Assembly: GCA_017996595.1 (NCBI GenBank)
Contig: JAGOGT010000099.1
Location: forward strand, 1-5,432
Length of the DNA stretch: 5,432 nucleotides
Direction: 5' to 3'
Source of the DNA: Candidatus Cloacimonadota bacterium
GTDB lineage: Bacteria > Cloacimonadota > Cloacimonadia > Cloacimonadales > Cloacimonadaceae
Below are positions 1,671-3,901 of the stretch, piece after piece. The position numbers and the translations under genes were made by a program. Position 1 is the stretch's first letter, and each line of letters opens with the position of its first letter. Below the pieces are notes generated by a model that worked only from the letters and a program-made list of their open reading frames with translations, did no database searches and had not been told where the DNA came from.

Positions 1671-3008
1671 TTACACTAATCCCTGATCGCACATGGCGTT
1701 TGCTACTTTCAGGAAGCCGGCAATATTGGCACCCTTCACGTAGTTTACATAGCCACTGGCATCTTTACCATTGGTACGGCAGGCTTCGTGGATATTCTTC
1801 ATGATGTCGTGCAAGCGGGCATCCACTTCGCTGCGGTTCCAGCCAAGGCGCATGGAGTTCTGTGTCATTTCCAGTCCGCTGGTAGCCACGCCGCCGGCAT
1901 TGGCAGCCTTTCCGGGAGCAAAGAGGATCTTGTGATTCAAGAACACATTCACCGCTTCGGGAGTGCTGGGCATATTGGCAGCTTCGCAAACGCAGAAGCA
2001 TCCGTTCGCCATCAGGGTCTTGGCATCGTTTTCGTCCAGTTCGTTCTGAGTGGCGCAGGGGATGGCCACATCCACTTTCACTTCCCAGGGACGCTTGCCA
2101 GGGAAGAACTTGGCATTAGGATACACGTCGGCATAGTCGGAAACACGGTCGTTATTGGAAGCACGCAGCTCCAGCAGGTATTGCACCTTGTCGCCGCTGA
2201 TTCCCTCTTCATCGAGGATATAGCCGTCGGGACCGGAGATGGTTACAACCTTGCCGCCCAGTTCATTGATCTTTTGCGCTGCGCCCCAGGCCACATTACC
2301 AAAACCGGAGAGGGCTACACGCAGTCCCTGGAAGGTCTTGCCCTGGGTTTTCAGCATTTCTTCGGTGAAATAAACCACGCCAAAGCCGGTGGCTTCGGGA
2401 CGGATAAGGCTTCCACCCCAGTTGATGCCTTTGCCGGTTAAAACGCCGGTGAATTCATTGCGAAGCTTTTTATACATGCCAAAGAGGTAACCAATTTCAC
2501 GTCCGCCCACACCGATATCACCGGCGGGAACGTCCGTATCGGGGCCGATATAACGGAAAAGTTCAGCCATGAAGGCCTGGCAGAAACGCATGATTTCAGC
2601 GTCGCTCTTGCCCTTGGCGTCAAAATCAGAACCGCCCTTACCGCCGCCCATAGGCAGAGTGGTAAGGCTATTTTTGAAGATCTGCTCAAATCCGAGGAAC
2701 TTCAAAATCGAAAGATTGACGCTGGGGTGAAAACGCAATCCGCCCTTGTAAGGCCCGATAGCGCTATTGAACTGCACGCGGTAACCGCGGTTTACATGCA
2801 CTTCACCCTTGTCATCCTGCCAGGGTATGCGAAAAATAATTACGCGTTCCGGCTCTACGATACGTTCCAAGATGTTGGCTTTCACAAAACGGGGGTTACT
2901 TTCGTAAACTTCCCATACAGTTTCGACAACTTCTTTTACTGCTTGCAAGAATTCGGGTTGTCCCGGATTCTTGGCTGCGACTTTGGCCATGAAATCGTGA
3001 ATGGTCAT
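1671..3008 (-). CDS. gdhA: Glutamate dehydrogenase, hexameric type, NAD-type coenzyme site
   Basis: The product catalyses reversible oxidative deamination of glutamate to 2-oxoglutarate and ammonia in the cytoplasm. From the start at 3008 it is 445 residues, matching the roughly 450-residue bacterial hexameric enzymes end to end. Numbered from that start, the substrate domain shows GPYKGGLRFHP (Lys88), the catalytic Lys124 in PMGGGKGG and Asp164 in PAGDIGVGGRE. The Rossmann domain has GFGNVAWG (235-242), and ISGPDGY follows its second strand. APGKAANAGGVATSGLEM closes the active-site side. Phe236 and Pro260 match the NAD-specific Clostridium symbiosum enzyme and not the Ser-rich pattern of E. 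coli NADP GdhA, so NAD use and a catabolic role are inferred. An ATG at 3020 would add four residues but overlaps the Shine-Dalgarno sequence. The gene has its own terminator and is transcribed divergently from the TM1266-like gene. Identity is very secure; coenzyme preference is inferred. Confidence 0.97.
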   Translation of the reverse strand: MTIHDFMAKVAAKNPGQPEFLQAVKEVVETVWEVYESNPRFVKANILERIVEPERVIIFRIPWQDDKGEVHVNRGYRVQFNSAIGPYKGGLRFHPSVNLSILKFLGFEQIFKNSLTTLPMGGGKGGSDFDAKGKSDAEIMRFCQAFMAELFRYIGPDTDVPAGDIGVGGREIGYLFGMYKKLRNEFTGVLTGKGINWGGSLIRPEATGFGVVYFTEEMLKTQGKTFQGLRVALSGFGNVAWGAAQKINELGGKVVTISGPDGYILDEEGISGDKVQYLLELRASNNDRVSDYADVYPNAKFFPGKRPWEVKVDVAIPCATQNELDENDAKTLMANGCFCVCEAANMPSTPEAVNVFLNHKILFAPGKAANAGGVATSGLEMTQNSMRLGWNRSEVDARLHDIMKNIHEACRTNGKDASGYVNYVKGANIAGFLKVANAMCDQGLV

Positions 3009-3018
3009 TCCATCCTCC
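3008..3018 (-). promoter_or_regulatory. Ribosome binding site that fixes the gdhA start
   Basis: On the minus strand a perfect GGAGG occupies 3018-3014 and lies 5 bases before the ATG at 3008. The in-frame ATG at 3020 shares its G with this motif and has only an A/T-rich stretch upstream, so it lacks a ribosome site of its own. Translation is therefore expected to start at 3008. Confidence 0.8.
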
Positions 3019-3040
3019 ATTTATTTTTTGTTTTTTTGCC

Positions 3041-3152: not shown

Positions 3153-3260
3153 AGTGTTTCACGCGCTATGTATCCGTTTTGCCGCTAAGTAGCAAAGCCC
3201 TGGAATTTACTCCCTGCATAGAACCATGTAGCCGCTTTGTATAGCACTGCTTATCATCCT

Positions 3261-3288
3261 CCAATGAATTTCATTGGTGGTTCATTGG
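3261..3288. repeat. TTCATTGG palindrome plus an extra half-site
   Basis: CCAATGAA (3261-3268) and TTCATTGG (3270-3277) form a perfect 8-bp inverted repeat around a single T. A second direct copy of TTCATTGG follows at 3281-3288. Three copies of one octamer within 28 bases of noncoding DNA look like an operator with an added half-site. The distance to gdhA (about 250 bases) and to the plus-strand gene (about 370 bases) is large for a classical operator. Confidence 0.4.
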
Positions 3289-3393
3289 CGGCTGTGTACC
3301 AAGGTTGGAAAGGGATTTATGGAAGCTGTGGACAATCCGAATAATAATGGCTCTCTTTCAATTCAAGTGGGTAATTTGCTCCCGTCAAGCTGA

Positions 3394-3460
3394 TTGGAGT
3401 TCAAAGCGCTTAAACACATAATAAGCTTATCTCTTTGTATGATAGCGCTTTGGACTTCAA
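3394..3460 (+). repeat. Hairpin repeat unit 1 (forward orientation)
   Basis: TTGGAGTTCAAAGCGCT (3394-3410) pairs along its full 17 bases with AGCGCTTTGGACTTCAA (3444-3460). As plus-strand RNA the two imperfect positions are G-U wobbles (3397 with 3457, 3401 with 3453). The loop is 33 nt and contains the perfect palindrome ATAAGCTTAT (3421-3430). There is no U tract after it, so it is not a standard terminator. It is homologous to unit 2 in inverted orientation, sharing both arms and the bases just inside them (GCTTAAA on one side, TGAT before AGC on the other). It is possibly a REP/BIME-like or other nonautonomous mobile hairpin. Confidence 0.75.
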
Positions 3461-3481
3461 ACAGCAGTGATATTTGTCTGC

Positions 3482-3548
3482 ATGAAGTCCAAGCGGCTAA
3501 TCAAGCTAATAGCATTGTTATAAATCATTTAAGCCGCTTGAACTCCAT
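3482..3548 (-). repeat. Hairpin repeat unit 2 (inverted copy of unit 1)
   Basis: Read on the minus strand, ATGGAGTTCAAGCGGCT (3548-3532) pairs with AGCCGCTTGGACTTCAT (3498-3482) around a 33-nt loop, exactly the geometry of unit 1. Stem columns 12, 13 and 14 differ from unit 1 (AGC becomes GCG), and the opposite arm changes to match. The outermost pair is also swapped, T-A to A-T. The two wobble columns, 4 and 8, are identical to unit 1. A 21-bp spacer separates the two units. Unit 2 ends 104 bases before the TM1266-like start codon. Confidence 0.75.
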
Positions 3549-3652
3549 TCCTTAAGCATGCGGTTTCTACCTACTTAGTTTGAAAGAAAGCCATAAGAAT
3601 AACACTGGACAAAAATTTGAGTTAATGCAAAGTTGTGCCAAGGAGGTAAGTT

Positions 3653-3901
3653 ATGACTTACAAAGTAGTTCTGGTAAAGATCGATCATCGCAGCAGCGAA
3701 GCCACCAAGGTGCAGGATATCCTCACCCAATACGGCTGCAACATCAAGGTGCGCCTTGGTTTACATGAAGTTTCCCAGGAATTCTGTGCCAATGACGGAC
3801 TGGTAGTATTGGAAGTGGAAGGAAAGGATACGGATATTCAGGATATGCTGCAAGCCCTGAAAAAAGTGGACTTCGTAAAGGCGCAATTAATCGAGATGTA
3901 G
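3653..3901 (+). CDS. TM1266-like small protein, possible [FeFe]-hydrogenase system regulator
   Basis: This 82-residue protein is cytoplasmic, with no signal peptide or membrane segment. Its predicted order is strand (3-10), helix (14-27), strand (29-36), strand (48-56), helix (59-71), strand (73-80). That is the beta-alpha-beta-beta-alpha-beta, ACT/NikR-C-like fold of the TM1266 family. Family members are often annotated as iron-only hydrogenase system regulators. The most distinctive stretch is IKVRLGLHE followed by C45 and DGLVVLEV. Cys29, His38 and Cys45 are conceivable metal ligands, but this is inference. No helix-turn-helix or ribbon-helix-helix segment is present, so it would act as a ligand-sensing or partner protein and not bind DNA alone. 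The start is firm: AGGAGG at 3641-3646, 6 bases before the ATG. The gene stands alone, divergent from gdhA, and no hydrogenase gene lies in the window. The family call is moderate; the function is unproven. Confidence 0.75.
   Translation: MTYKVVLVKIDHRSSEATKVQDILTQYGCNIKVRLGLHEVSQEFCANDGLVVLEVEGKDTDIQDMLQALKKVDFVKAQLIEM

Follow-up and report, generated by a model that had tools for sequence, protein, structure and literature searches.

What are the two inverted hairpins that lie in the long spacer between a glutamate dehydrogenase gene (minus strand) and an open frame of 82 codons (plus strand) in a Cloacimonadota genome, and by what process did they arrive there? The stretch of DNA analysed here (the window; 5,432 nucleotides) is one complete contig (G000:C157) of a 1.4-Mb, 60%-complete assembly, referred to below as the own genome (G000). 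A first-pass annotation, made from the letters of the window, had described two 67-nt units that stand head to head, 21 nt apart, each with 17-nt arms and a loop of 33 nt. Direct reading bears this out, and a repeat search returns identical arms (Table 1). Our analysis suggests that the two units are very probably REP-like hairpins in a head-to-head, REPIN-like arrangement, and that their spread is likely due to a RAYT. This Y1 HUH transposase is predicted to act on DNA that is single-stranded and folded, where it would bind the hairpin and cut it.

Table 1. Coordinates of the hairpin pair and of its neighbours in the window.
Feature	Position	Strand	Details
Unit A, 67-nt hairpin	3394..3460	+	Arms 3394-3410 / 3444-3460, loop 33 nt; covariance-model match 78.9 bits
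Unit B, inverted partner of unit A	3482..3548	-	Arms 3482-3498 / 3532-3548, loop 33 nt; covariance-model match 66 bits
Spacer between units A and B	3461..3481	.	21 nt
GCTG, external stem of unit A, 5' half	3389..3392	+	Inverted repeat 3389-3410 / 3444-3465
Outer 25-nt inverted repeat, left half	3349..3373	+	Also at one side or more of the C84, C89, C83 and C72 copies
Outer 25-nt inverted repeat, right half, imperfect	3568..3592	-	Repeat comparison among own-genome copies
Glutamate dehydrogenase gene (gdhA), neighbour	1671..3020	-	PF00208 and PF02812
82-aa ORF, neighbour, no Pfam match	3653..3901	+	ORF list and Pfam search

Read in the same sense, the 5' arms of the two units are TTGGAGTTCAAAGCGCT and ATGGAGTTCAAGCGGCT. 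As had been claimed, they differ at stem columns 1, 12, 13 and 14 with a change of the partner base at all four, so that the inner stem of unit B is not that of unit A; both units have G.T at column 4 and T.G at column 8. Besides being inverted repeats, the arms of each unit are also near direct repeats of the quasi-palindrome TTGGASTTCAA, which accounts for the wobbles at these two columns. The given strand of unit A is the one that folds with G.T wobbles only; its helix is extended outward, beyond an A.A mismatch, by an external stem of GCTG and CAGC (3462-3465). RNA folding yields -25.7 and -27.0 kcal/mol for the wobble strands of the two units versus -19.5 and -19.7 for the opposite strands, and DNA folding -13.0 and -14.9 versus -9.9 and -12.2; the shuffle z-scores of the folds range from -3.2 to -7.0. 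RNA and DNA calculations concur that each unit folds best from one strand and, the units being inverted, either strand of the window holds one good and one mismatched hairpin, in agreement with the first-pass annotation. Alternatively, the entire pair can form one long hairpin of -59.9 kcal/mol as RNA.

The surroundings of the pair contain several further features. An inverted repeat downstream of gdhA (1609-1651) resembles an intrinsic terminator, and the minus strand of 2-1561 encodes a partial 520-aa protein with an AIR9 Ig-like match and weaker Omp28 and ASH-type matches. A diverged counterpart of this protein adjoins gdhA in G006, and a short tandem repeat array (CTCACTGTGCGAAGCACTCTCACTGC...) adjoins gdhA in the same genome (G006:C418, L253, 1130-1440). 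Another repeat-like sequence, around CCTCCAATGAATTTCATTGGTGGTTC, is found at 3255-3285; a similar one is located downstream of a unit in L039, and similar text, CCTCTGATGGATTTCATTGAAGGTTC, occurs near another copy, at C140.

The units are members of a repeat family. Queried with the pair, the own genome returns 19 places; a query with a single unit gives 30 matches at E≤1, the weakest ones being partial. A covariance model (R1) built from 61 distinct units detects, with 150 of 687 first-look candidates scored, at least 72 distinct unit places at E≤0.01. These are spread over 38 contigs of the 60%-complete assembly; the list itself has 102 rows, of which 30 repeat a place on its opposite strand. 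Since the unit recurs this often, the window hairpins are far beyond chance. The search with such a model in host and relatives, which the first-pass annotation had proposed, thus reveals further copies. Across 117 genomes, with 44 candidates scored per genome, the model finds units in at least 24, the own genome included, all of them from one family; in the other families no unit match was found at this depth. Among the relatives, G004 belongs to the same genus as the window and G034 to the same family. The distribution within one genus is patchy: G004 and G006 contain dozens of units, and the covariance model found none in the congeners G001, G002, G005 and G007, the last of which is a single contig. 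G034 (82% complete) has 43 unit matches and G009 (99% complete) between 12 and 15.

An exact-pattern scan with one genome per species recovers at least 107 stretches. Among the 80 listed, all stretches with two or three matches are from Cloacimonadota, while other phyla have one match each; these isolated single matches look like chance. Viral carriage was considered and rejected: the exact pattern occurs on nine viral contigs, where its site reaches 18.4-24.6 bits, and these look like chance matches as well; two weaker matches on viral contigs, 16 and 13 bits, lie away from that site. In a separate case, a stretch of 632 bp that includes a hairpin pair is 98.4% identical across two genera (G000:C116:1-632, L021, and G009:C70, L368:3235-3865) and its likeness then ends within the stretch compared; this may reflect either a recent transfer or a misbinned or chimeric contig.

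At the level of the single unit, members of the family are hairpins of 64-68 nt with 17 stem pairs and a nearly invariant core, TTGGAGTTCAA / TTGGACTTCAA. The loop measures 30-34 nt in 95 well-matched units of G000 and G004 (32 nt in 48 and 33 nt in 27), a range that is partly set by the filter behind these loop and column tables (core match of at least 16/18, length 64-68). With no length filter, i.e. with 5-200 nt permitted between the two foot motifs, 69 of 71 hairpins at G000 loci and 32 of 35 at G004 loci, in total 101 of 106, still measure 64-68 nt. Across the 95 units there is hardly any variation in columns 2-10, with a wobble at column 4 in 93 units and likewise at column 8 in 93; columns 11-17 vary in paired steps, and 34 different inner-stem sequences are present. 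The units end in characteristic feet: of 112 units, 107 have GGAG on one strand, and on the opposite strand 89 have GAAG and 17 GTAG; each of these faces a foot containing CT. These counts, as well as the pair tallies below, come from our own unit finder (lengths 62-70, core match of at least 14/18). Beyond the core, and separated from it by a mismatch, lies one more short stem whose sides vary in step; this external stem has a mean of 3.04 pairs in 113 units, compared to 1.91, and at most 2.22, with shuffled partners. There is also a divergent subfamily with the arms CTGGAGTCGAT / ATGGACTACAG and irregular pairs at columns 4 and 9.

Covariation was assessed in the 61 distinct units against a shuffle control, which is inflated by relatedness, and a slid control, which is without that fault but favours a structure read from the same sequences. 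Paired cells amount to 98.2% versus 84.9% in shuffles, the covariation score is 0.351 versus 0.113 in shuffles and 0.081 in the best slid version, and 141 cells are changed on both sides versus 47.6, a value that no shuffle matched. The weakest measure is the number of pairs changed on both sides, 8 of 17 versus 5.7, which 12 of 500 shuffles matched.

The arrangement of neighbouring units is nearly uniform. Among the adjacent pairs of the own genome, 27 of 28 are '+-' and none '-+', the 28th being one ambiguous '++', and in G004 all 19 are '+-', this being the count of orientation pairs suggested by the first-pass annotation; in this tally one overlapping false unit (L048:1556) caused the true pair at C82 to be counted as singles. 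In G004, G006, G009 and G062 together, 33 of 39 neighbours are '+-' and the others are 2 '-+', 2 '++' and 2 '--' (covariance-model rows after removal of opposite-strand duplicates). The spacers of the 28 adjacent own-genome pairs measure 14-36 nt. The GGAG foot, on the wobble strand, forms the outer ends of a pair, and GAAG or GTAG, on the other strand, lies inside. Furthermore, the two partners have unlike inner stems in 28 of 28 pairs in the own genome and 19 of 19 in G004. This bears on the covariation that had been noted within the single locus: the paired changes stand, but the column changes in the window are mostly the difference between the unit types A and B that pair together, and not independent compensations.

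The position of the units and one empty site bear on their mobility. Of 42 elements in the own genome, 37 lie between genes, compared to 20% of random windows, which answers the proposed check for intergenic bias; an ORF was here any plain open frame of at least 100 aa, and the five overlaps concern frames of 103-131 aa. One single unit (G000:C84:3466-3532), together with its external stem, is located in a short spacer between two conserved genes; it is missing at the same intergenic site in G001, G002, G003, G004, G005 and G007, and G006 carries a different, unrelated insert there. The C84 unit is one clean insertion of a single unit. Hence the empty site that the first-pass annotation called for exists for one single unit and was obtained for no pair: upstream of gdhA, the window and the relatives set against it do not share their gene order, and the neighbours of two C84 pairs and two G004 pairs are non-syntenic.

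Around some copies a further repeat is seen. In the window and at C83, the pair stands between the halves of an imperfect outer inverted repeat of 25 nt, GGCTCTCTTTCAA..AAGTGGGTA, which C84, C89 and C72 have on one side; L313 and L300 contain two weaker matches at a distance of 0.1-0.3 kb from units. The outer repeat could be either a MITE end or a co-amplified flank.

Which enzyme could have moved the units? In G004, a Y1/HUH gene for 188 amino acids (G004:C26:568-1134; found in databases under the name HGW-Cloacimonetes-3) lies between two copies of the hairpin pair, and a second, frame-broken RAYT copy (G004:C12:14850) lies between a unit and a pair. G011 possesses two RAYTs (C13 and C12), 47-49% identical, which are flanked by units of the same size with other inner stems; a G006 RAYT with 42% identity has hairpins at its flanks that agree in size but not in core; and G070 contains a RAYT remnant with units just upstream. 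The G004 protein matches PF01797 (Y1_Tnp) with 34.6 bits (cut-off 23) and the NCBI REP transposase model NF047646 with 54.7, which is below the curated cut-off of 80; all 52 aligned homologues match NF047646 at E≤1e-5, and some database relatives are annotated as 'REP element-mobilizing transposase RayT'. As a single sequence the protein finds no PDB chain at E≤0.1. A profile of its homologues has one sole match at E≤0.01, the TnpA-REP structure 4er8, and the predicted fold (pLDDT 89.5) also has 4er8, a REP transposase bound to a REP hairpin, as best Foldseek match (E 8.8e-8), at a sequence identity of 18%. The residues H60 and H62 (NHYH) and Y120 (YIHQNP) are invariant across the homologues.

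The association of RAYTs with flanking hairpins was evaluated by comparing left and right flanks at 30 of 33 listed RAYT loci, 14 of 20 other Y1 loci and 16 of 19 GDH loci; RAYT loci were excluded if either side had less than 150 nt, and control loci if they did not exceed 3300 nt, and the gene limits of the controls were taken as the middle of the fetched stretch. A hairpin repeat is common to both flanks at 25 of 30 RAYT loci versus 0 of 16 GDH loci, one of which has a shared flanking repeat without a hairpin. At five of the 30 RAYT loci this comparison found no shared flanking repeat. Of the other Y1 loci, 10 of 14 share a flanking repeat, 8 of them with a hairpin. Shared flanking repeats are expected of mobile elements, and the test argues against chance but does not single out RAYTs, because other Y1 loci are also often flanked in this way. 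Moreover, in a scan of 42 loci, hairpins with GGAGT/GGACT feet are found at a minority of the RAYT loci (G004:C26, G011, G006, G070 and two of a far family), the remaining loci having hairpins of other sequence or none, and a generic hairpin scan of 11 RAYT loci yields varied flanking hairpins. Four RAYTs of the same family (L365, L366, L367 and L363, from G004:C28, G007, G001 and G016) are flanked by AT-rich hairpins of a different type, with cores such as TTTAACTC / GAGTTAAA; at the G007 locus the shared flanking repeat reaches up to 0.5 kb.

RAYT genes and units do not always coincide. A strong RAYT match (E≤1e-30) is present in 4 of the 24 unit-bearing genomes (G004, G006, G011 and G014); the G014 gene lies at a contig end, and no flanking unit-like hairpin was found there. 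The searches found no Y1/RAYT match in three unit-bearing genomes: the own genome (60% complete), G034 (82%) and G009 (99%). The REP-associated Y1 transposase that had been proposed is therefore seen beside units in relatives, and the search of the window's own genome found none. Repeats are places where fragmented assemblies break, but G009 is 99% complete; units thus either outlast a local RAYT or manage with none. The presence of Y1 genes was rejected as a simple predictor of units: G034 and G009 bear units and have no Y1 match, and many unit-free genomes have Y1 genes. Taken together, the copies, their inverted pairing, the covariation and the empty site support the repeated copying of a structured element, which the first-pass annotation had offered as one reading (a REP/BIME or a hairpin transposed as a single strand), and so do the intergenic bias and the flanking Y1 (RAYT) genes in relatives.

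Can other mechanisms account for the pair? If the units were a regulatory RNA (an attenuator, a UTR element or a protein-binding RNA) under selection in the transcripts of neighbouring genes, pairing by G.U on one strand only, strong covariation and an intergenic position would be well explained. Yet a transcript across both inverted units would contain one good and one mismatched hairpin, the genes next to the copies vary in kind and in orientation, one unit is a clean insertion, and the occurrence is patchy among congeners, from dozens in G004 to none found in the single-contig G007. In addition, Rfam 15 yields no family match in the window above the gathering score, by which the described RNA families are rejected too. 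We consider a regulatory RNA very improbable. The pair could also be cargo in a MITE of 244 bp, with 25-bp ends (the outer repeat in Table 1) that served as cutting sites for an unrelated DDE transposase. In favour of this, five copies of the subtype have the outer inverted repeat next to them, the window pair and C83 on both sides, and the low-complexity flanks at C83 both read ATTTTTTTT, which could be a target duplication. However, among the own-genome loci scanned it occurs only beside these copies, apart from the two weaker matches; one single unit was inserted by itself; and in other genomes pairs occur, as do RAYT genes flanked by pairs. This makes the MITE model extremely unlikely.

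Equally remote is the idea that the units are the ends of a classical IS200/IS605 element, or of a non-autonomous derivative, and not a REP system. The enzyme superfamily is the same, and among the relatives 41 of 60 genomes have Y1 genes, but the unit-flanked Y1 proteins best match the REP transposase model and 4er8; they carry Y-x-x-x-NP and not the Y-x-x-x-Q given for class 1 in the motif table of PMC6006769. Inverted pairs are found at dozens of sites, instead of one left and one right end per element, and only one of 20 fetched Y1 loci has even a weak unit match nearby (L087, 18.3 bits). Two further assignments were rejected. Integron attC sites have RYYYAAC / GTTRRRY boxes at the hairpin ends, and the unit ends read TTGGAG / CTTCAA. 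A canonical GTAG REP fails on both foot and loop: GTAG is the foot in only 17 of 112 units, and the loops have 30-34 nt and are not short. For these two reasons the units are not filed there; the class that suits the pair best, in its likely way of working too, is that of REP/REPIN-RAYT systems taken broadly.

In this broad class, the REPINs of Pseudomonas fluorescens SBW25, as described by Bertels & Rainey 2011 (PMC3116915), are similar in many respects: they are likewise mostly extragenic, inverted REP doublets with a spacer, show compensatory changes in the hairpin, are linked to RAYT genes and have two alternative folds, a long hairpin or a 'clover'. Compared with that description, the Cloacimonadota family differs in its units of 64-68 nt with loops of 30-34 nt, in partners that are unlike in the inner stem in every tallied pair, in its lower copy number and in its phylum. 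The GTAG-tagged REPs of Di Nocera et al. 2013 (PMC3733652) share alternative complementary stem residues, G.T pairs and inverted dimers, which are 20-100 bp apart and in some families heterodimers. In the terms of that paper, the layout with GGAG at the outer ends is 'head-head' and the one with GTAG/GAAG inside 'tail-tail'. The foot differs, however (mainly GAAG in Cloacimonadota, with GGAG on the other strand), and table 1 of the paper gives stems of 5-13 bp versus 17 pairs here, and loops of 2-20 bp, one self-complementary inner region having up to 27, versus 30-34 nt.

With the REP/TnpA-REP system of E. coli (Corneloup et al. 2021, PMC8266576; 4er8) the Cloacimonadota system shares the enzyme fold with HUH and tyrosine motifs and, in that account, irregular stem pairs; the E. 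coli gene is also flanked by inverted REP pairs of unlike type (PMC6006769). The Cloacimonadota enzyme differs by its NHYH and YIHQNP motifs and its low identity to 4er8, and the main hairpin type by its lack of GTAG and its long loop. By its Y motif, the nearest described enzyme group is TnpA-Y1 subclass 2.6, or RAYT group 5, reported mostly from Bacteroidetes (Quentin et al. 2018, PMC6006769). As described there, this subclass shares YIH[QN]NP and its members are likewise flanked by atypical structures without GT[AG]G, with copies elsewhere in the genome; in this comparison by motifs alone, the HUH motif is NHYH in Cloacimonadota and NH[LIV]H in subclass 2.6, whose motifs also include WQ. 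Caldithrix abyssi, from a phylum of the same superphylum, has a REP-like, high-copy intergenic palindrome, which we liken by its description in PMC5317091 only. In the literature compared, REP-RAYT systems are described mainly from Proteobacteria, Cyanobacteria and Bacteroidetes, and in the open-licence literature we found no description of RAYTs, repetitive extragenic palindromes or REP transposases in Cloacimonadota.

The loop deserves separate consideration; its 30-34 nt exceed the lengths given for REPs in the literature compared. In the window's family, the shared flanking repeat contained hairpins at nine RAYT loci. The best hairpin has a loop of 31-33 nt at five of them (G004 C26, C12 and C28, and both G011 loci), and G006 and G001 have such a loop in a lesser listed hairpin; the loops measure 42 nt in G016, where a separate scan yields a 75-nt hairpin with a loop of about 31 nt, and 13, 13 and 3 nt in G007. 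Of 17 RAYT loci of other families, 12 have a best hairpin whose loop does not exceed 24 nt; at two loci this loop measures 31-32 nt and at three 48-57 nt. Loops of about 32 nt are thus common in the window's family, and they occur outside it as well. Near the RAYTs of G004:C26, G011, G006 and G070, 24 of 25 hairpins with GGAGT/GGACT feet have 61-64 nt between the feet (unfiltered scan, duplicates of one locus counted once). At one class-level RAYT, both flanks contain a short hairpin of identical core, GGAGTTCACCT CTTTTC GGGTGGACTTC. We read the long loop as an expansion from a short REP with a conserved core, and infer this direction of change.

It is conceivable, though on balance doubtful, that in one Cloacimonadota family the RAYT-REP system moved to a new architecture: an 11-nt foot core read as sequence, a freely covarying middle stem, and a measured loop of 30-34 nt common to REPs with unlike cores, the loop length being read or needed by the RAYTs. 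The units would then be a distinct REP class with obligate unlike partners, and the measured loop might, for instance, hold two subunits or a second contact.

How, then, could a RAYT act on such a pair? According to PMC8266576, TnpA-REP binds a folded single strand via the foot tetranucleotide and stem irregularities and ignores the reverse strand; its cut falls at CT, chosen by a guide as shown for one enzyme. In our model, which extends this to Cloacimonadota, the RAYT would read the core, and the two irregular pairs at columns 4 and 8/9 may serve as marks of strand or shape. By analogy with TnpA-REP, the NNAG foot would guide cleavage at the CT of the opposite foot. The inner stem would need only to pair and could drift in compensated steps; unlike partners would keep the pair from turning into one perfect long palindrome. 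We lean slightly towards the outer GGAG strand as the recognised one. The copy in the window may have been mobilised in trans, or by a RAYT that was lost or is missing from the incomplete assembly.

The long loop has a practical consequence: the RNAMotif rules given in PMC6006769 ask either for a loop of only 2-5 nt or for a short second stem that a bulge of 1-3 nt connects, and would miss this feature. REP-RAYT is a known case of a single-strand transposase that lives with a population of short hairpins. Here, one genus includes unit-rich genomes, genomes in which no units were found and other RAYT-hairpin types, so that gain, loss and specificity can be closely compared, and the covarying middle stem together with the nearly invariant core provides a map of what the enzyme probably reads and what it probably needs folded.
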